Shown here: positions 1-9,642 of the stretch, piece by piece
How the letters are laid out: every line of letters starts with the position of its first letter
Numbering within the stretch: position 1 is the stretch's first letter
NCBI GenBank assembly: GCA_025966355.1
Contig: JAICWZ010000014.1
Span: 1-12,564 of the forward strand
DNA: 12,564 bases
Origin: Thermomicrobiaceae bacterium
GTDB lineage: Bacteria > Chloroflexota > Chloroflexia > Thermomicrobiales > Thermomicrobiaceae
Direction of reading: 5' to 3'
Position numbers and translations under genes: made by a program
Notes under the pieces: generated by a model
Seen by the model: only the letters and a program-made list of their open reading frames with translations
Databases searched by the model: none
Told to the model about the DNA's origin: nothing

Positions 1-1197
1 AATCGCTTCACGTTCGACTCCGTGCGCATCGATGGCTTTGAATGGGCCGATGCGCTGCAGTTAAATGCGCAGCTTGACGACAGCGTCTACGACCCGGCGT
101 TCCGGCTCATCGCCGAACTCGGGCTACCACTTTCGATCGGAACGCAGGTACGCCCTGAGCCGGCGCTGGCGCATGAGCCGATGCTGGACCGCGGCTGCGA
201 GCTCACCGGCAGCGACCGCTCGTCGCGCCGCCCGATCGCGTTGCTCAATCCGTTTGGCGGCAATGACGCGCTCAAGGGATTCGTGCCCCAGAAGTTCGAC
301 GACTTGGTGCCGCTGATGCGCGCGCTGATCGAGGAAGGCTATGACATCCTGATCTGCCCGACCGGCTCAACCTGGGGTTCGCGTGCGCGCATCGAAGATC
401 TGCGGGAGCGCCTGCCGGAGGATCTGCGCGGCTACACCGGCGTCGTGCCGGACCCGGCGACATCGTCCGCTCCCACGACGGTGATGCGCGACATTGTCAG
501 CCTGGTCGGTCAGGTCGAACTGGTTGTGACGATCGAAGGCTGGATGATGCACGCCGCATTTCTGAACGGGAAGCCGTACCGGCTGCTGCTCATGCCGGCC
601 ACTGGTGAGCGCGATCGGCAGCCGTGGGGCCGAGCGCGCGAGCAGCATGTCTGGCGCTTCCAGGGCGATCCGGCGCTCGACAGCCCGCCCTGTCCGGAGC
701 GGCCTCGCCGTGCCGCCTGGCTGACGTTGCTGAGTCGCGTCAACGATCCGCTCTGGTCCGATACGCTGCTCGCCGTCGCGGGAAGCCCCGATCGCGATAT
801 TCGCCACGCGGCATTGCATGCGCTGGGGCGACTCGGGCGCCGCGACCTGCGGCCGCATTTCGCGGCTCTGCTGGACGATCCATCGTGGACGGTTCGCGCC
901 CTGGCCGCCGAAGTATTGCTCGAACGCTATCCAGCGGGGAACGAAGGCGGTCCTGAACGGCGAACGCTCGCGGGCTATCGCGCGGTCGGCATGGTGCCGC
1001 ACGGCGGCTGGGAGACGGTCGCACACCTCCGATCGGCCGCGCTTCCAGCGCTCCGGGCAACGCTCCACGACGCGGACCCGGTCATGCGACGCGAGGCAGC
1101 AATGGTCCTGGAACGCTACAACCGCAGGCTCGATTCGCCGAACGACTCCGGTTCGATCGAAGATCTCGGGATGGACGGAGCGCCACATGAGCCGTGA
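1..1197 (+). CDS. GT9-like glycosyltransferase fused to C-terminal HEAT repeats (5' end missing)
   Basis: The frame is open from the first base of the window, so the gene begins upstream; a GTG at 22 is only an internal candidate. The visible part holds the C-terminal half of what looks like a heptosyltransferase-type (GT9) GT-B fold: a strand-loop LLNPFGG at about 241-261, then an alpha/beta stretch, then VVTIEGWMMHAA at about 523-558, which occupies the place of the usual nucleotide-sugar-binding SNDTGPMHLA segment. The key residues there are diverged. From about 763 the protein changes into alpha-helical pairs of HEAT type (DRDIRHAALHALGRLG, DPSWTVRALAAEVLLERY, and again DPVMRREAAMVLERY near 1084-1128), which normally form a protein-binding scaffold. 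It overlaps the next gene by 11 bases, implying coupled translation. The likely role is sugar transfer in surface glycan assembly. The donor and acceptor cannot be told, and the GT9 assignment is moderate because the N-terminal domain is not visible. Confidence 0.65.
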   Translation, partial: NRFTFDSVRIDGFEWADALQLNAQLDDSVYDPAFRLIAELGLPLSIGTQVRPEPALAHEPMLDRGCELTGSDRSSRRPIALLNPFGGNDALKGFVPQKFDDLVPLMRALIEEGYDILICPTGSTWGSRARIEDLRERLPEDLRGYTGVVPDPATSSAPTTVMRDIVSLVGQVELVVTIEGWMMHAAFLNGKPYRLLLMPATGERDRQPWGRAREQHVWRFQGDPALDSPPCPERPRRAAWLTLLSRVNDPLWSDTLLAVAGSPDRDIRHAALHALGRLGRRDLRPHFAALLDDPSWTVRALAAEVLLERYPAGNEGGPERRTLAGYRAVGMVPHGGWETVAHLRSAALPALRATLHDADPVMRREAAMVLERYNRRLDSPNDSGSIEDLGMDGAPHEP

Positions 1198-1960
1198 ACC
1201 GCGCTCGGACACACCCGCGACAGACACGGTGCTCATCCTGACGCCGCTGAAAGACGCGGCGCCGCATCTCGCGACCCACGTTCGTCTGCTCACGACGCTC
1301 ACGTACCCCCATCGACAGATTTCGTTCGGCTTCCTGGAGGGCGATAGTCGTGACGACACGGCAGACCGCCTGAGCGGGGAGTTGCGGCAGCTCCGCCGCG
1401 AATTCGCCGGCGCCGATCTCTGGCGCCGCGATTTCGGCTTCGCGCTTCCGCCAGGTACGCATCGGAGCGATCCACGGATTCAGCCGGAGCGACGGCGTGT
1501 GCTGGCTCGCGCGCGCAACCACCTCCTGTCGCACGCCTTGCGCGATCAGGACTGGGTGCTCTGGCTCGATGTCGATCTCACGTTCTATCCGCCCGACATC
1601 ATCGAACGCTTGCTGGACGTTGGGAAACGCATCGTGCTGCCACACTGCGTGCTCGATCCTGGTGGCCCGACATTCGACCAGAATGCCTGGCGCGATAAGG
1701 GACGCTATCATCTTGACGATCTGCGCGACGAGGGCGCCGTCGTGCCGCTCGATACGGTCGGCGGGACGATGTTGCTGATCCGAGCCGATCTGCATCGTGA
1801 TGGCCTCATCTTCCCACCATTCCCGTATCGTCCCGGACATCCGCGTGCACGAGGAGGAGAAGGCGAGCTTGAAACGGAGGGCCTTGGGCTCATGGCCGCC
1901 GACATGGGCGAGACGTGCTGGGGACTCCCGCACCTCGAAATCATCCACCGGCGCGCCTGA
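1187..1960 (+). CDS. Anp1/Mnn9-type (GT62-like) glycosyltransferase
   Basis: The protein is a 257-residue single domain. Its motifs match the Anp1/Mnn9/Van1 family of mannosyltransferases, known mainly from the fungal Golgi: LEGDSRDDT (50-58), RARNHLL (108-114), WVLWLDVDLTFYP (123-135) with the metal-binding DxD, VGGTMLLIRADLHRDG (191-206), IFPPFPY (208-214), ETEGLGLMAADMG (229-241) and a late H254. The start ATG at 1187 has GGAG at 1177-1180, six bases upstream, and overlaps the previous gene. The frame is open further upstream, but that part is only a shadow of the GT9/HEAT gene. There is no signal peptide or membrane segment, unlike the type II membrane-anchored fungal enzymes, so it probably acts in the cytoplasm on a lipid- or protein-linked acceptor. 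A TGA at 1958-1960 ends it just after the domain is complete. GT-A fold is secure; mannose as donor is inferred from the family. Confidence 0.8.
   Translation: MSREPRSDTPATDTVLILTPLKDAAPHLATHVRLLTTLTYPHRQISFGFLEGDSRDDTADRLSGELRQLRREFAGADLWRRDFGFALPPGTHRSDPRIQPERRRVLARARNHLLSHALRDQDWVLWLDVDLTFYPPDIIERLLDVGKRIVLPHCVLDPGGPTFDQNAWRDKGRYHLDDLRDEGAVVPLDTVGGTMLLIRADLHRDGLIFPPFPYRPGHPRARGGEGELETEGLGLMAADMGETCWGLPHLEIIHRRA
1851..1859 (+). promoter_or_regulatory. Candidate ribosome binding site inside the Anp1-type gene
   Basis: The run GAGGAGGAG lies nine bases before a TTG at 1869 that is in frame with the GT71-GT4 protein. It is the best Shine-Dalgarno-like site for that frame. It also encodes ordinary residues (RGGEGE) of the Anp1-type protein, so the match may be chance. 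Competing starts are GTG 1797, ATG 1800, GTG 1845 and TTG 1884; none has a better-placed site. Confidence 0.3.
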
Positions 1961-4385
1961 CAACGCCCGAGCGGAGATCGCCCAGCAGCAGCGCCTGCTC
2001 GCCGAGCGTATTGCAACGCTCGGTGGCCCCCTGCCTCCGTTTCGCGGTCGTGGCATTGTCACGGCAATCGGCGGCGGGCATATCGTCGGCGGCTGGGTGC
2101 TTCTGTCGTTCCTGCGCCAGGTTCACCACTGCCGCTTGCCGGTCGAAATCTGGTATCTGGGTGAGGCCGACCTGTCGCCGGAACTGCGTGCGGCCTTCGA
2201 TCGCTTCGACGTCGAGTTCGTCGATGCCGGCCGCGACCTGCGCGTCAGCGGCCGGCGGCCGGAGAATGGATGGGAACTCAAAGCCTGCGCGGTCGCGCTG
2301 AGCCGCTTCGCCGAAGTCGTCTGGCTCGACGCCGATCTCCTCCCGCTCATCGATCCCACCACGCTCTTTGAAGATCCACACTATCACTCGGCCGGTGCTC
2401 TCTTCTGGCCCGATATTCGTTCGGTGAATCGCTTCAACCCGATCTGGTCGATCGCAGGCACAGCTCCGCCGGATGGCCCCGAGTACGAATCGGGTATGGT
2501 CGTACTCGACAAGTCGCGCCACTGGCCCGAACTGCAACTCGCGCTCCATTTCAACCAGCAATCGGACTTCTATTATCGTTACCTGCTCGGCGATAAGGAC
2601 ACCTATCAGCTCGCCTGGCGGCTGCGAGATGCGCCACGCGCGCTGCCGGCACAGCTCCCGGAAGTCGCACACGGCGTCTATCCCGACGACAGGCTCGGAC
2701 AGCCCCGGCTTGTCGGGCTCTGGCAGCATGATTTCGCGGGCGAACGTATCGCCCTCCACCAGACCGACACACGACTCGTCGCCTGGGGTCGCAGTCCGAA
2801 CGTGTCCGGCTTTCCGTATGGCACCGAGCGTGACGCCGCACTGGCGGAGCTGCGGAACATCTGGAACGGTGATCTCGGCCGGCGCCCAGCGCACCAACTG
2901 AACGGCGCGGCGCCGACCGATATCGAAACGATTCGCCGCTTCGCCTACCTTCGTCCGGGGATCGAATGGCGCGATCTCGAACTGCTGCCCGGCGGCCGGA
3001 TCGGCGAAGGCGCGCGGCAGATGGAGCGCTTCTGGCGTATCGAGGAGGGCGATGGAGATCCGCGACTAATCCTCAGCGGGCGCATGCGGGAAACGTGTCT
3101 ATTGAGATTGCAGGCCGACGGTCGTTGGCAAGGCGCCTGGTTGGAGGATGAACGGGGGCCGGCCGAACTCATACCGCTGGCGCAGGATGAGCCGCCGCAC
3201 CCCGCTCGGCTCGATTCGCGTCCGAGCCTGCTGTACATCACGCCGGTCGCGCCGGCCGAGAGCGGCAACGGTGTGGCGATGCGCGCCGCGCAGGTGTTGC
3301 GCCGCCTGACCGAGACGTACCGAGTCTCAGTCCTTATTCTGCCGCTCTACCCGAACGTCGCGGCAGCGCACCCGCCAAAATGGCTGGGCGAACGCTGTGC
3401 CGCCGTCCGCTGGGCACCGCCACCGTTACCCGTCGATCGATCGAACGTCGCACCACACGAACACGCCGCCTGGCAGGCAGCCTGGGTTGACGAGATCGGC
3501 CGCGCGTATCACGACGAACCGTTCGATGCGATCCACCTCTTTCGCGCGGGCACGATTCCGCTGGCGGACACCTACCTGCGCCGCCCCGATCTCCAACGGG
3601 CCATCATTCAGATCGATCTCGACGATGTTGAATCGCGCACCCAGAGCCGCCTGGCCGCTCTTTACGGACGCTATGATCGCGCTGCAGAACATGCCGAGGC
3701 CGAACGACGATCGAACTTCGCGCTTCACATCGAGCAGCAACTTCTGACCGGCTGGGATCGGATCTTCGTCTGCTCCGAGGTCGATCGTGTCGAACTCGAA
3801 CAGCGCCTACCCGAGCGGAACGCCGAGATCGTCGTCCTGCCGAATCGCGTCCGCCTACCGGCGGCCCCACCCCCACGACCATGCGTATCGCCGCGAACGC
3901 TGCTCTACGTCGGCACGCTCAGCTATTTCCCGAATGCCGATGGGCTCATCTGGTTCTGCCGCGAAGTTCTGCCGCGCATGCGTGAGTGGAGTCCGATCGC
4001 GCTGCGACTGCTGGTCGTAGGCAGCGGCCCAACCGACGACGTTCAGGATCTGGCGCATATCCCGGAGGTCGAGATCATCGGAGAAGTCGATAAACTCGAT
4101 GCTTGGTACGCGCGCACCGATCTGGTGATCGTGCCGCTACGGGCCGGTGGAGGCACGCGGATCAAGCTCATCGAAGCGCTCGCGTATCAGCGGCCGGTCG
4201 TCAGCACGACGCTCGCCGCCGAGGGACTCGACGTCATTGACGGGACGCATCTCCTGATCGGCGATCGGCCGGCCGTTTTCGCCCGGCACTGTCTCCACCT
4301 GCTCGAAGATCGCGATCTCGCAGAGCACCTCGCCGCCAACGGCCGGACATTGGTCGAAGAACGCTACGCGATCGCGGGAGAATGA
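1869..4385 (+). CDS. Two-domain glycosyltransferase: Mnn1-like (GT71) domain, beta-rich insert, GT4 domain
   Basis: The protein is about 838 residues if TTG 1869 is used. The N-terminal domain (about 2050-2830) reads as a Mannosyl_trans3/Mnn1-type GT71 fold: GGGHIVGGWVLLSFLR, PVEIWYLGE, GWELKACAVA, VVWLDADLLPL with the DxD aspartates at 2328-2330 and 2334-2336, then ALFWPD and a late ESGMVVLDK. A beta-rich segment I do not recognise follows (about 2925-3180, with GRIGEGARQMERFW and LEDERGPAELIPL). The C-terminal domain (from about 3225) is GT4: SLLYITP, RTLLYVGTLSYFPN, DLVIVPLRAGGGTRIKLIEAL and RPVVSTTLAAEG. No membrane segments are seen. The start is uncertain: the coding character begins near 1965, where this frame has no ATG, GTG or TTG until 2097, so the first 30 or so residues from TTG 1869 are probably a shadow of the overlapping gene. 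The GT4 domain stops soon after LVEERY, slightly short of the usual last helix. The protein could make two successive linkages of one glycan. Confidence 0.78.
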   Translation: MKRRALGSWPPTWARRAGDSRTSKSSTGAPDNARAEIAQQQRLLAERIATLGGPLPPFRGRGIVTAIGGGHIVGGWVLLSFLRQVHHCRLPVEIWYLGEADLSPELRAAFDRFDVEFVDAGRDLRVSGRRPENGWELKACAVALSRFAEVVWLDADLLPLIDPTTLFEDPHYHSAGALFWPDIRSVNRFNPIWSIAGTAPPDGPEYESGMVVLDKSRHWPELQLALHFNQQSDFYYRYLLGDKDTYQLAWRLRDAPRALPAQLPEVAHGVYPDDRLGQPRLVGLWQHDFAGERIALHQTDTRLVAWGRSPNVSGFPYGTERDAALAELRNIWNGDLGRRPAHQLNGAAPTDIETIRRFAYLRPGIEWRDLELLPGGRIGEGARQMERFWRIEEGDGDPRLILSGRMRETCLLRLQADGRWQGAWLEDERGPAELIPLAQDEPPHPARLDSRPSLLYITPVAPAESGNGVAMRAAQVLRRLTETYRVSVLILPLYPNVAAAHPPKWLGERCAAVRWAPPPLPVDRSNVAPHEHAAWQAAWVDEIGRAYHDEPFDAIHLFRAGTIPLADTYLRRPDLQRAIIQIDLDDVESRTQSRLAALYGRYDRAAEHAEAERRSNFALHIEQQLLTGWDRIFVCSEVDRVELEQRLPERNAEIVVLPNRVRLPAAPPPRPCVSPRTLLYVGTLSYFPNADGLIWFCREVLPRMREWSPIALRLLVVGSGPTDDVQDLAHIPEVEIIGEVDKLDAWYARTDLVIVPLRAGGGTRIKLIEALAYQRPVVSTTLAAEGLDVIDGTHLLIGDRPAVFARHCLHLLEDRDLAEHLAANGRTLVEERYAIAGE

Positions 4386-4389
4386 TGGA

Positions 4390-5574
4390 TTACGTCCGGG
4401 CTCTATCGAGCACCTCGTTCAGCACATCGATCAAACGGCTCGTGGCGCGCTCCCAGGTGAAGTCGCGCAACACCACGTCGCGCGCGCCGTACGGGCCGGC
4501 GTCCGGCCGAGCAATCGCGGAGCGAATCGCGGACACGGCGGCGTCATGATCCGGCTCCCACCAGTTGGAGCCCGCGAAGAGGGCCTGCAGTGCGGGATCG
4601 CCCTCGAAGCGCGCCGGAACCTCGCGACTCCGCAGGAGGGTGGCCGTATCTGGCGTCAAGTAGGCCTGGTAAGCGCTGTGATCGGGCGCGATCAGGCGCA
4701 GTCCGCTGGCGGCCGCCTCGACCATCGCCTGATCCCAACCTTCGCCGTGCGACAGGCTGATGTAGTGCGTGCCGGCGGCGAAGAGGCGCGGCATCTCATC
4801 ATCCGGTAGCAGATCGAGCAGCATCTCAACCGGTGCGGCATCGGCAAAGCGACGACCCGTGCTGTCCTCCAACTGGCGCATCTGCAAGAGCAAGAGTTCG
4901 AACCAGCCTGGAGCGTAGCGTCCGAGTTTGAGAATCAAGATGGCGTCATCGTGCTCGCGCGTCGCATCGAGCCAGGCGTGCAGCAATCCAACGATATTCT
5001 TGCGCGGACCCAGCTCCGAGACGTTCAGAAAGCGCGTTGGGTAGTCCAGCACCGGACGCCCGGCTTGCGTGCGAAACGCAAGCGGCTCGACCGGCTTTCC
5101 ATAGAGATGCGGATTGATTCCGAGCGGCACAACACGAAGACGTTCGTCCGGCATGCCGCTGTTCAGCCACGCCTGGCGCGATGATTCCGTGGACACGATG
5201 ACCATGTCGTGTCGCAGATTGCGCTCGATCCAGGCATCCGCCACCCGCGTCGACTCGAACGACGTGTAATTGACGTTGAACGTTGACCGGTCGATCTCAA
5301 CCTGATGCGGCATCGTGAAATGCAGCGTCATCTCCGCGTCGAGTGGCCGCAGCAGATCCTCAAACCACGGATCGCGCATCGCCGCCGGCAGCGTTACCGG
5401 ACTCCACGACGGCAGATCGATCAGCTGCACGGCGACTCCCTGATGCACCAACTCACGAACAAACTCGCGGACATGATGGTCGTAGCCACTCGGCCCGCGA
5501 AACGGACCATGCACGCGCAGCGACGTCAAGCGGCTCGCTCGCGCCGTGCTCATCTCCTCCACTGTCTTCATCAT
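4390..5574 (-). CDS. GT4-family glycosyltransferase
   Basis: The protein has about 394 residues and a GT-B fold, with the GT4 hallmark half in the C-terminal domain: FLNVSELGPRKNI (183-195), the linker ILILKLGRY (213-221), and HGEGWDQAMVEAAASG (277-292) containing the EX7E pair E279/E287 (numbering from GTG 5577). The glycine-rich acceptor-side loop is HGPFRGPSGYDHHVREFV near the N terminus. GTG 5577, ATG 5574 and ATG 5571 are in tandem; ATG 5574 was chosen because no clear Shine-Dalgarno site separates them. The gene begins only 9 bases after the acyl-CoA dehydrogenase stop (6 if GTG is used), so the two are probably co-transcribed. Its stop is 4 bases from the stop of the convergent GT71-GT4 gene. 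No membrane segment is seen. It belongs functionally with the glycosyltransferase cluster although it lies on the other strand. Donor and acceptor are unknown. Confidence 0.85.
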   Translation of the reverse strand: MMKTVEEMSTARASRLTSLRVHGPFRGPSGYDHHVREFVRELVHQGVAVQLIDLPSWSPVTLPAAMRDPWFEDLLRPLDAEMTLHFTMPHQVEIDRSTFNVNYTSFESTRVADAWIERNLRHDMVIVSTESSRQAWLNSGMPDERLRVVPLGINPHLYGKPVEPLAFRTQAGRPVLDYPTRFLNVSELGPRKNIVGLLHAWLDATREHDDAILILKLGRYAPGWFELLLLQMRQLEDSTGRRFADAAPVEMLLDLLPDDEMPRLFAAGTHYISLSHGEGWDQAMVEAAASGLRLIAPDHSAYQAYLTPDTATLLRSREVPARFEGDPALQALFAGSNWWEPDHDAAVSAIRSAIARPDAGPYGARDVVLRDFTWERATSRLIDVLNEVLDRART

Positions 5575-5583
5575 CACACTCGC

Positions 5584-7724: not shown

Positions 7725-8942
7725 ATGACCGTCACCATCGACTTCAGCGACCCGGCCGTGCGGGCCAATCCGTATCCGATCTATGCCGAACTGCGCCGCG
7801 ACGCGCCGGTCGTCTGGACCGGCCAGAACTGGCTGATCAGTCGCTATGAAGACATCATCGGCCTCATGACCGACGAGCGCGTCTCCTCGGCCCGCGCCGA
7901 GTCGATCTTTCAGGTTTTGCCTGCCGAGATTCAGAGCGAGGTGCAACCGCTCCGTCATGTGCTCGGCAGCCGCATGCTCCTGACCGATCCGCCGATCCAC
8001 ACACGCTTGCGCAACCTTGTCACCAAAGCCTTCGGCGCCCAGAGCGTACGGGCGAAGCGACCGCGCATTCAGGAGATCTGCGATCGCTTCGTCGATCAGG
8101 TGATCGGACAGGGCAGGATGGACGTGGTCGCGGATCTGGCGGTGCCGCTGCCCGGCTGGGTCATCGCCGATATGCTCGGCGTGCCGCAAGCAGATCAGGC
8201 GAGCTTCACCCGCTGGAGCCGCGATCAGGTGCGCGTCTACGACCGCCCCGGCACAAGCGGCGAGCGCATCCCGATCATGCGCCAGGGACAGGCAAGCATG
8301 CTGGAGATGAAGACTTATCTGGAAGACGTCATCGCTGCCCGCCGCGAAGAGCCGCGCGACGATCTGATCACCTACCTCGTGCAGGCGGAAGAAGCGGGCG
8401 ATCGCCTCTCAACCGATGAACTCGTCATCATGATCATCGCCCTGCTCGTCGGCGGCAACAATTCAACCGCTCACCTGATCGGCAACGCGATCTTCACGTT
8501 GGCGCGCCATCCGGAGGCGCTGGAGCAGCTTCGTGCCAACCCCGACCTGATCGCGACCGCCGTCGAGGAAGTGCTGCGCTTCGAAAGCCCGGTGCAGGCA
8601 ACGAGTCGCGTCGCGCGCGATGTCATTGAGATCGGCGGTCAGACGATCGAGCCGGGCCAGGGGATCAGCCTCCTCTTCGGCTCGGCAAATCGCGACGAAC
8701 GCCAGTTCCCGCATCCTGACGAACTCGATCTGGCACGCAAGCCGAATCGACACCTGACCTTCGCCCACGGCCCGCACTTCTGCCTCGGCTCGGCCATCGC
8801 CCGCGCCGAAGCGCAGATCGCCGTCCAAACCGTCGTCCAGCGCTGCCTGGGACTCGAACTCATCTCCGACCACGCCGACTGGCAGGAGGGCTTCTCCTTC
8901 CGAGGACTGAAGCAGCTGCCGGTACGGTTTAAGGCGGCGTGA
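7725..8942 (+). CDS. Cytochrome P450 with unusual I helix
   Basis: This is a soluble bacterial class I-type P450 of 405 residues with no membrane anchor. The heme-binding loop FAHGPHFCLG (346-355) holds the thiolate ligand C353. The ExxR pair is E282/R285 in EEVLRF, and RMLLTDPPIHTRLRNLV near residues 84-100 is the usual C-helix region with the heme-propionate His/Arg. The I helix reads LLVGGNNSTAHLIG (240-253), where most family members have (A/G)Gx(D/E)T. The acidic residue is Asn246 and the following Thr is Ser247, so the proton-relay pair is altered while T248 remains. The ATG at 7725 has a strong AAGGAGG (7712-7718), six bases upstream. No ferredoxin or reductase gene is near. The substrate is unknown. 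Pairing with a DUF1028 gene in one transcript suggests a small catabolic or tailoring unit. A hairpin follows the stop. Confidence 0.95.
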   Translation: MTVTIDFSDPAVRANPYPIYAELRRDAPVVWTGQNWLISRYEDIIGLMTDERVSSARAESIFQVLPAEIQSEVQPLRHVLGSRMLLTDPPIHTRLRNLVTKAFGAQSVRAKRPRIQEICDRFVDQVIGQGRMDVVADLAVPLPGWVIADMLGVPQADQASFTRWSRDQVRVYDRPGTSGERIPIMRQGQASMLEMKTYLEDVIAARREEPRDDLITYLVQAEEAGDRLSTDELVIMIIALLVGGNNSTAHLIGNAIFTLARHPEALEQLRANPDLIATAVEEVLRFESPVQATSRVARDVIEIGGQTIEPGQGISLLFGSANRDERQFPHPDELDLARKPNRHLTFAHGPHFCLGSAIARAEAQIAVQTVVQRCLGLELISDHADWQEGFSFRGLKQLPVRFKAA

Positions 8943-8949
8943 TCACGAT

Positions 8950-8980
8950 GATGAGGGCGACGCATGCGATCGCCCTCGTC
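8950..8980 (+). terminator. Hairpin downstream of the P450 gene
   Basis: GATGAGGGCGA (8950-8960) pairs with TCGCCCTCGTC (8970-8980), eleven pairs including one G-T wobble, with a nine-base loop. It starts seven bases after the P450 stop. There is no T-run behind it, so it may be a weak or factor-assisted terminator or an mRNA 3' stabiliser. Confidence 0.5.
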
Positions 8981-9449
8981 GCCCAAACGCTCGATCGCAG
9001 TCTCCCGCCGACGCTCTGCCCGCCTCAATTGCCGCACAGACACAAGCTCATCATATACTCCGCACTCGACTGGCATCGAAACCGCTGAATGGATGCCCCT
9101 CGTCGGAAGGCAATTGCGCATATCGTCGAACGACACCGGGCGAATTGAAGTGATCAAAATCAGGGAAACGGACGGGGAAGCATCTCCGCATCATGGCCCA
9201 ACCACCGGCTCTGTTACCATCGGTTGCCGCAAGATCATCCTGGCTTCGGTATACTGCCCTCGCAGTGCGATCGTCTCGGGCAATCCGGGACTATTCGTAG
9301 CGTGAAGCGAATCGGTTGTGGTGTACGATCGTTCTGCTAGCGGAGCAGCGCCCTTTCTGGGGACCAAGGGACGTTGCAGTACGCTTTTTCGCCGTTCGGA
9401 TAACCATCTTGATCCGGCGGAAAGTTGATCGGTCCGAGTGCGAGTTTCG
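8981..9449. other. Non-coding stretch between P450 and the LysM gene
   Basis: No credible gene is seen in this stretch. Open frames here (for example 8964-9305 on the plus strand, 9191-9511 on the minus strand) lack ribosome binding sites and any domain-like pattern. TATACT occurs twice (9054-9059 and 9250-9255), each with TTGCCGCA starting 25-26 bases upstream; that spacing (19 and 20 bases between hexamers) is too long for a normal sigma-70 promoter. A hairpin with a mismatched middle lies at 9392-9420 (CGGAT paired with ATCCG, flanked by CCG and CGG). Confidence 0.4.
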
Positions 9450-9465
9450 GTGCGTACATACGCAC
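9450..9465. repeat. 7-2-7 inverted repeat, possible operator
   Basis: GTGCGTA, two bases, TACGCAC is a perfect dyad. It lies 39 bases before the -35 of the LysM/M23 promoter, a fitting place for an activator or a DNA-bending regulator. No regulator gene adjoins it, so the binding protein is unknown. Confidence 0.4.
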
Positions 9466-9504
9466 TAAAGGCGTCATATTCGCGGTCTGTTATGGATGAC
9501 CAAA

Positions 9505-9533
9505 TTGACATCCCGCGATAGCGCTGCTATGCT
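9505..9533 (+). promoter_or_regulatory. Sigma-70-type promoter of the LysM/M23 gene
   Basis: TTGACA (9505-9510) and TATGCT (9528-9533) are separated by 17 bases, with an extended -10 TG at 9525-9526. This is the best promoter in the window. It predicts a transcript start near 9540 and a leader of about 100 bases. Confidence 0.75.
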
Positions 9534-9539
9534 CTCGCC

Positions 9540-9642
9540 CTGGGACCTGGTTATGGCAAACGACAAGCAGCGAATTAGCGGGGACTCATATTCCTGCGCG
9601 TCGGAGCCGTAAGCCGTAAACGGGAACGGGAAGGGAAGATTT
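9540..9642 (+). other. 5' leader of the LysM/M23 transcript
   Basis: About 100 bases lie between the predicted transcript start and ATG 9643. The leader contains a tandem GCCGTAA repeat (9606-9612, 9613-9619), a short CCGT/ACGG stem possibility and a purine-rich GGGAAGGG ribosome binding site (9628-9635). I could not match it to a known riboswitch. Confidence 0.35.

Follow-up and report, generated by a model that had tools for sequence, protein, structure and literature searches.

Known enzymes of glycosyltransferase (GT) family GT62, represented in Pfam by PF03452, include Mnn9, Van1 and Anp1, alpha-1,6-mannosyltransferases of the fungal Golgi; those of GT71 (PF11051) include Mnt2, Mnn1, Mnn2 and Mnn5. 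The fungal Golgi enzymes carry a type II membrane anchor, a trait of the fungal members that lies outside the Pfam definition. The window analysed here, a stretch of 12,564 nucleotides from a Chloroflexota bacterium of the family Thermomicrobiaceae (contig JAICWZ010000014.1), encodes a protein of the Anp1/Mnn9 family followed by a GT71-like (Mannosyl_trans3) domain fused to a GT4 enzyme. A 2017 survey covered 153 genomes, of which 86 were from eukaryotes, 52 from bacteria and 15 from archaea; according to its relevant passages, PF03452 was confined to fungi, and fungi and plants had PF11051 (PMC5225481). A table of CAZy entries in a second paper lists one bacterial GT71, that of the planctomycete Isosphaera pallida (PMC5352709), and GT62 and GT71 are counted in fermented-milk metagenomes in a passage that names no organism (PMC10819033); a further paper, by its excerpt, concerns a yeast (PMC10662464). 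The open-access PMC literature, judged mostly by titles and the first lines of abstracts, yielded no article about a GT62 protein of bacteria.

An Anp1/Mnn9-family protein in a bacterium

The first protein of the pair is a member of the Anp1/Mnn9 family, as a sequence-only reading of this DNA had proposed. A hidden Markov model search with PF03452 gives 162.2 bits (E = 2.2e-47) against a cut-off of 28.8, and a phmmer comparison with all chains of the Protein Data Bank (PDB) returns a single match up to E = 1, yeast Mnn9 (3zf8, E = 4.7e-15). Mnn9 is likewise the top Foldseek match in the PDB, with 28% identity to the window protein in the structural alignment, and a profile built from ten bacterial Anp1 domains, window included (alignment A1), finds Mnn9 over nearly its full length at 1.7e-42. 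PF03452 itself matches all ten rows of this alignment at E 0.001.

Seven positions reported to bind the metal ion, the GDP phosphates and the acceptor in fungal GT62 enzymes are invariant in the ten rows. They comprise both aspartates of the Asp-Val-Asp motif and the histidine listed in Table 1, the donor-phosphate arginine pair R93 and R102, and the acceptor residues D164 and N166, the last four corresponding to AnpA R208, R217, D286 and N288. The Mnn9 numbering of the two aspartates was assigned by hand from the alignment of the profile with Mnn9 and from the relevant passages of PMC9769593, which give positions 236 and 238 and His389 of Mnn9 as metal ligands. The AnpA positions were mapped by hand via the Mnn9 numbering, not by direct alignment, and their roles rest on docking and molecular dynamics in the corresponding part of the same paper.

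The GT2 profile PF00535 also matches the Anp1-family protein (27.5 bits, cut-off 23.3) and all ten rows of the alignment. Set against 162.2 bits for the Anp1 profile, this score led to rejection of a plain GT2 enzyme and is kept only as a sign of fold kinship; no other GT-A family matches better, in agreement with the initial assignment. Near fold neighbours include COLGALT1 and LH3, which were crystallised with UDP-sugars, and COLGALT1 is matched by the bacterial profile at 3.2e-9. A chance or motif-only resemblance, considered for both domains of the pair, is ruled out by the profile, PDB sequence and fold comparisons.

A GT71-like domain fused to a GT4 enzyme

The protein that follows had been described as Mnn1/Mannosyl_trans3-type and as lying side by side with the Anp1-type protein. 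Both statements hold for its N-terminal part, which PF11051 matches at E = 3.8e-25 (89.2 bits, cut-off 22) over two stretches of the profile, 1-133 and 184-234 of 273. The description had missed a GT4 enzyme at about residues 460-846 (PF13692, E = 3.2e-24), which shares one open frame with the Mannosyl_trans3 domain and whose TIGR03087-like score of 142 bits lies below that model's cut-off of 316.65.

Foldseek places yeast Mnt2 (GT71, 7xjv) first in the PDB for the Mannosyl_trans3 domain, so that the structural comparison bears out the fungal likeness of both domains. A six-row alignment of Mannosyl_trans3 domains (A5), in which PF11051 matches every row at E 0.01, contains four viral rows (L027, L028, L030 and L031); a further viral contig, L029, was left out because only 11 of 13,680 bases differ from L028. 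The elements D-A-D, G-D-K and E-x-G, shared with Mnt2, occur in all six rows, and ESG itself in three. Sequence alignment to Mnt2 is strong in the first half only and weak in the second. The six-row profile ranks Mnt2 first in the PDB (4.2e-8), with glycogenin-2 at 2e-4; a phmmer search with the whole fusion yields, for this domain, nothing beyond weak matches to glycogenin (best E = 0.015), and a glycogenin/GT8 identity was rejected.

The start of the fusion is ambiguous. Its frame is +1 relative to Anp1, standard in-frame start codons lie at 1797, 1800, 1845, 1869 and 1884, and no in-frame ATG, GTG or TTG occurs between 1884 and 2097; third-position GC content singled out no start. Translation may begin inside the Anp1 gene (1797-1884) or at a non-standard codon, or the frame may be joined to Anp1 through a frameshift or an assembly indel. 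The window shares the absence of a start with a related locus, L010, where the open reading frame (ORF) after Anp1 is also in the +1 frame and has no standard in-frame start between 10668 (inside Anp1) and 10824. In a second related locus, L008, Anp1 and the next gene overlap by ATGA.

Gene order and distribution in relatives

L008 (genome G253, of the same order) and L010, from a metagenome-assembled genome (MAG) named Dehalococcoidia, both show Anp1 followed by a GT4 gene and, after that, a convergent GT4. The best segment of the L010 Anp1 is 64% identical to that of the window, and the window's convergent GT4 is 51% and 47% identical to its counterparts in L008 and L010, respectively. In both loci the alignment pairs the downstream GT4 gene with the fusion's C-terminal half, and the gene lacks the Mannosyl_trans3 part. 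From these orders and alignments, the set of Anp1, GT4 and convergent GT4 recurs in all three Chloroflexota-type loci, window included, and only in the window does a Mannosyl_trans3 domain precede the GT4.

More widely, the nine other Anp1 domains of the alignment, from Chloroflexota-type, Ignavibacteria and alphaproteobacterial sources, share 42-61% identity with the window protein. In the Ignavibacteria MAG (L011), GT4 and Anp1 lie in one chain. A tblastn search of 72,556 plasmids with the Anp1 protein (E limit 1e-3) yields six records, five from Azospirillum and one from Gemmobacter, in each of which a longer chain ends in the Anp1 domain; these domains have 36-50% identity to the window protein. 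The three chains that were domain-scanned consist of PF04488, GT2 and Anp1; PF04488, GT2, GT4 and Anp1; and PF04488 and Anp1, with no PF11051. GT25 modules also accompany the plasmid Anp1 domains, and genes for a sugar amidotransferase, NeuB and a formyltransferase lie within about 14 kb of them. Two of these chains, Azospirillum proteins at 12387-14756 of L015 (789 aa) and 9196-12783 of L017 (1195 aa), carry PF04488, GT2 and Anp1 modules, joined by GT4 in L017, and each is adjoined by a further glycosyltransferase gene.

The rarity of both families was gauged in 400 genomes of the phylum and 61 of the order, which share 12 and together make 449, many of them incomplete; the two 400-genome draws, one for each family, are taken as the same set, since their listed handles agree. 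PF03452 exceeds its cut-off in 3/400 phylum and 2/61 order genomes (3/449 overall), a count that includes G089, a weak match (32.9 bits in the genome scan) that is neither in the alignment nor among the three Chloroflexota-type loci. That genome encodes, at 8855-9553 of L009, a 232-aa protein with a partial PF03452 match of 35.1 bits and a match to phrog_1574, which has no assigned function; the surrounding region looks like a prophage. PF11051 exceeds its cut-off in 1/400 and 2/61 genomes (2/449), one of them G428, which has no PF03452. L014, at a contig edge in a genome of the same order, encodes at 8779-9639 a Mannosyl_trans3 protein that stands alone and has 40% identity to the window domain.

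The sequence-only reading placed its weight on the pairing of the two families, and here the survey disagrees: only 1 of the 449 genomes, the window's own, has both, and the closest loci, L008 and L010, combine Anp1 with GT4 and lack PF11051. Support for a paired mannan pathway comes from a single contig. None of the five genomes or records from which L010, L011, L015, L016 and L017 derive shows PF11051, which is weak evidence of absence, and neither family matches in 14 control genomes, a set with no fungus as positive control. Within the phylum of the Ignavibacteria MAG, PF03452 exceeds its cut-off in 1/345 genomes, the MAG itself, and five more match below it, within profile positions 14-102 of 263.

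Carriage by a phage or plasmid was considered and rejected after searches of phage, plasmid and viral-contig collections. With tblastn (E limit 1e-3), the Anp1 protein finds nothing in 50,697 phage records, and the Mannosyl_trans3 part nothing in those records or in the 72,556 plasmids. In scans of viral contigs, none of the 113 candidate stretches for the ten-row Anp1 alignment was confirmed, and 5 of the 57 for the Mannosyl_trans3 alignment were. The viral Mannosyl_trans3 proteins of IMG/VR (L027, L028, L030 and L031) are 33-34% identical to the window domain; three lie at 4120-5652 of L027, 6594-8795 of L028 and 2277-4403 of L031. Methyltransferase domains are present in the L028 and L031 chains, and a GT9-type gene adjoins those of L027 and L028. 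Phage-type genes nearby are PhoH in L028 and Volactin in L031, with none identified for L027. A scan of genome contigs with the window's Anp1 protein confirmed 2 of 27 stretches and misses most distant relatives because it uses exact peptide patterns of a single protein.

Layout of the contig

The window spans the whole of contig C446, which belongs to a 2.72-Mb MAG that is 79% complete in 614 contigs. Three plus-strand genes, for a HEAT-repeat protein (ORF1), the Anp1-family protein and the fusion, stand at the left contig end and are faced by a GT4-type gene on the minus strand (Table 1). The cluster as first outlined correctly held the Anp1 and Mannosyl_trans3 genes; ORF1 and the convergent GT4 belong to it as well.

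Table 1. Features of the cluster, with positions in the 12,564-nucleotide window.
Feature	Position	Strand	Details
ORF1, 398 aa, open at contig edge	1-1197	+	PF13646 HEAT_2, E 1.3e-13; PF02985, E 5.2e-9
Anp1/Mnn9-family (GT62-like) glycosyltransferase, 257 aa	1187-1960	+	PF03452; overlaps ORF1 by 11 bases
Asp-Val-Asp metal-binding motif, D128/D130	1568-1576	+	Mnn9 236/238; both Asp invariant 10/10
His H254	1946-1948	+	Mnn9 metal ligand His389; invariant 10/10
Mannosyl_trans3 + GT4 fusion protein, as scanned	1845-4385	+	PF11051, PF13692
Mannosyl_trans3 (GT71-like) domain	2028-2924	+	Asp-Ala-Asp at 2328-2336
GT4 (GT-B) domain of fusion	3222-4385	+	PF13692, E 3.2e-24, matched residues 684-822; alignment A2
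Convergent GT4-type glycosyltransferase	4390-5577	-	PF13439 weak, below cut-off; MSMEG_0565-like, below cut-off

The HEAT repeats of ORF1 make up its C-terminal half. On visual inspection the N-terminal half resembles a GT-B enzyme of GT9-like type; no glycosyltransferase family of the Pfam and NCBIfam models matches it at E 0.01. Homology of ORF1 to the GT9 genes beside viral Mannosyl_trans3 genes was dropped, BLASTP against two phage GT9 proteins giving nothing significant. Beyond the cluster, the five other scanned ORFs encode an acyl-CoA dehydrogenase, a DUF1028 protein, a cytochrome P450, a LysM-M23 peptidase and a creatininase.

A hydropathy scan, run without a dedicated predictor, found no type II membrane anchor in the Anp1-family protein (highest 19-residue value 1.18) and no clear membrane anchor in any of the four cluster proteins. 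The usual line for a membrane segment is 1.6, which only the fusion reaches (1.62), in a stretch that the predicted structure models as the domain's first strand and helix; the other two proteins peak at 1.25 and 1.46.

Proposed function and alternative explanations

Family membership, the conserved catalytic and substrate-contact residues and the gene order in relatives, all directly observed, are the basis of the proposed function. We give a probability of about 0.6 to the reading that the locus belongs to a group of glycosyltransferases, probably cytosolic and GDP-mannose-using, that builds a surface glycan. The Anp1-family protein would be a metal-dependent GT-A enzyme with the usual GT62 activity, taking mannose from GDP-mannose and adding it to a mannose-like acceptor, and its partner GT4 enzymes, one downstream and one on the opposite strand, would add further sugars. 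The Mannosyl_trans3 domain, which precedes the downstream GT4 in the chain and was probably gained in this lineage by horizontal transfer, would contribute one more sugar, probably a side or capping mannose; the 'extend and cap' roles are an analogy with the fungal enzymes. The glycan would be assembled on a carrier in the cytosol, to yield a polysaccharide, a glycolipid or a glycoprotein side chain. Solubility, donor and acceptor sugars, linkages, step order, product and surface location are all predictions of this scheme. A supply of GDP-mannose is plausible because a ManC/GMP-type (ManC beta-helix) domain is encoded in the same MAG; this domain is common, with matches in 9 of the 14 control genomes. 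A bolder version, put forward tentatively, sees a bacterial Mnn9 branch of its own, working in anchor-free multi-enzyme sets of scattered bacteria and joined here by a Mnt2/Mnn1-type domain with relatives in viral contigs, as the maker of a branched or capped mannan-like glycan.

Possible, if rather doubtful, is that the GT62- and GT71-like folds were conserved while donors and acceptors changed, and that the product is an ordinary bacterial heteropolysaccharide, not a mannan-like one. Several donors often occur within one GT family, UDP-sugar enzymes are near in fold (COLGALT1 also by profile), and the plasmid Anp1 domains keep company with PF04488, GT2, GT4 and GT25 modules and with the amidotransferase, NeuB and formyltransferase genes. 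Against changed sugars, no bacterial row deviates at the positions that contact the GDP phosphates and the acceptor mannose in the fungal GT62 enzymes, and Mnn9 is far ahead of every UDP-sugar enzyme by sequence.

It is improbable that misassembly or misbinning created the adjacency of the two domains even in part. The fragmented, incomplete MAG and the unclear start of the fusion are compatible with such an error, and among relatives of the acyl-CoA dehydrogenase gene within the same family, the best is only 38% identical. Tetranucleotide composition does not settle the binning: of ten contig stretches taken from the MAG, two were all N, and the eight readable ones correlate with the window at r = 0.42-0.59 each and 0.70 pooled, with 0.60 and 0.61 for two longer stretches of G347, of the same family. 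On the other side, synteny with L008 and L010 holds for the genes to either side of the Mannosyl_trans3 domain, a single open frame covers this domain and its GT4, and L010 too lacks a standard start after Anp1. Recent transfer of both genes as a pair from a fungus, suggested by the fungal restriction of PF03452 among the genomes of the 2017 survey (PMC5225481) and by the rare, scattered occurrence of both families in the phylum, is very hard to credit when the other bacterial Anp1 domains are far closer to the window protein than the 28% of Mnn9, sit in bacterial gene sets and fusions, and occur without PF11051, as PF11051 does without PF03452 in G428.

Significance and comparison with known systems

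The bacterial proteins are not new to databases, because Pfam models match them and the plasmid proteins bear 'glycosyltransferase' labels; what is new is the bacterial, modular context in which known folds and families occur. Published work treats GT62 as fungal, and a bacterial Mnn9 branch deserves notice. Compared with Golgi complexes, small bacterial members that lack an anchor may be easier targets for expression and crystallisation, and a phylogeny of these members is relevant to the origin of the yeast mannan enzymes. Should the bacterial branch prove deep, the Golgi mannan enzymes of fungi would have bacterial relatives or a bacterial-type ancestor; should the proposed activity be true, it would point towards mannose-based surface glycans in uncultured bacteria and plasmid-bearing Azospirillum.

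The Anp1-family protein resembles Mnn9, Van1 and Anp1 in Pfam family, near full-length profile match, best Foldseek match, Asp-x-Asp and His metal ligands, GDP-phosphate arginines and acceptor Asp/Asn. Unlike them, it is only 257 aa long, with no anchor seen and no Van1-like partner noticed, and the bacterial members sit in bacterial gene sets or multi-GT chains. The Mannosyl_trans3 domain shares with Mnt2, Mnn1, Mnn2 and Mnn5 its Pfam family, the DxD, E-x-G and GDK elements and the 7xjv fold match, but it is about 300 aa long and fused to a GT4, whereas Mnt2 is a chain of 548 residues. Among other described proteins, the viral ones have PF11051 in common with the window and differ from it in their methyltransferase domains (L028 and L031), and the multi-domain proteins of the Azospirillum and Gemmobacter plasmids, annotated only as 'glycosyltransferase', share its Anp1 domain.

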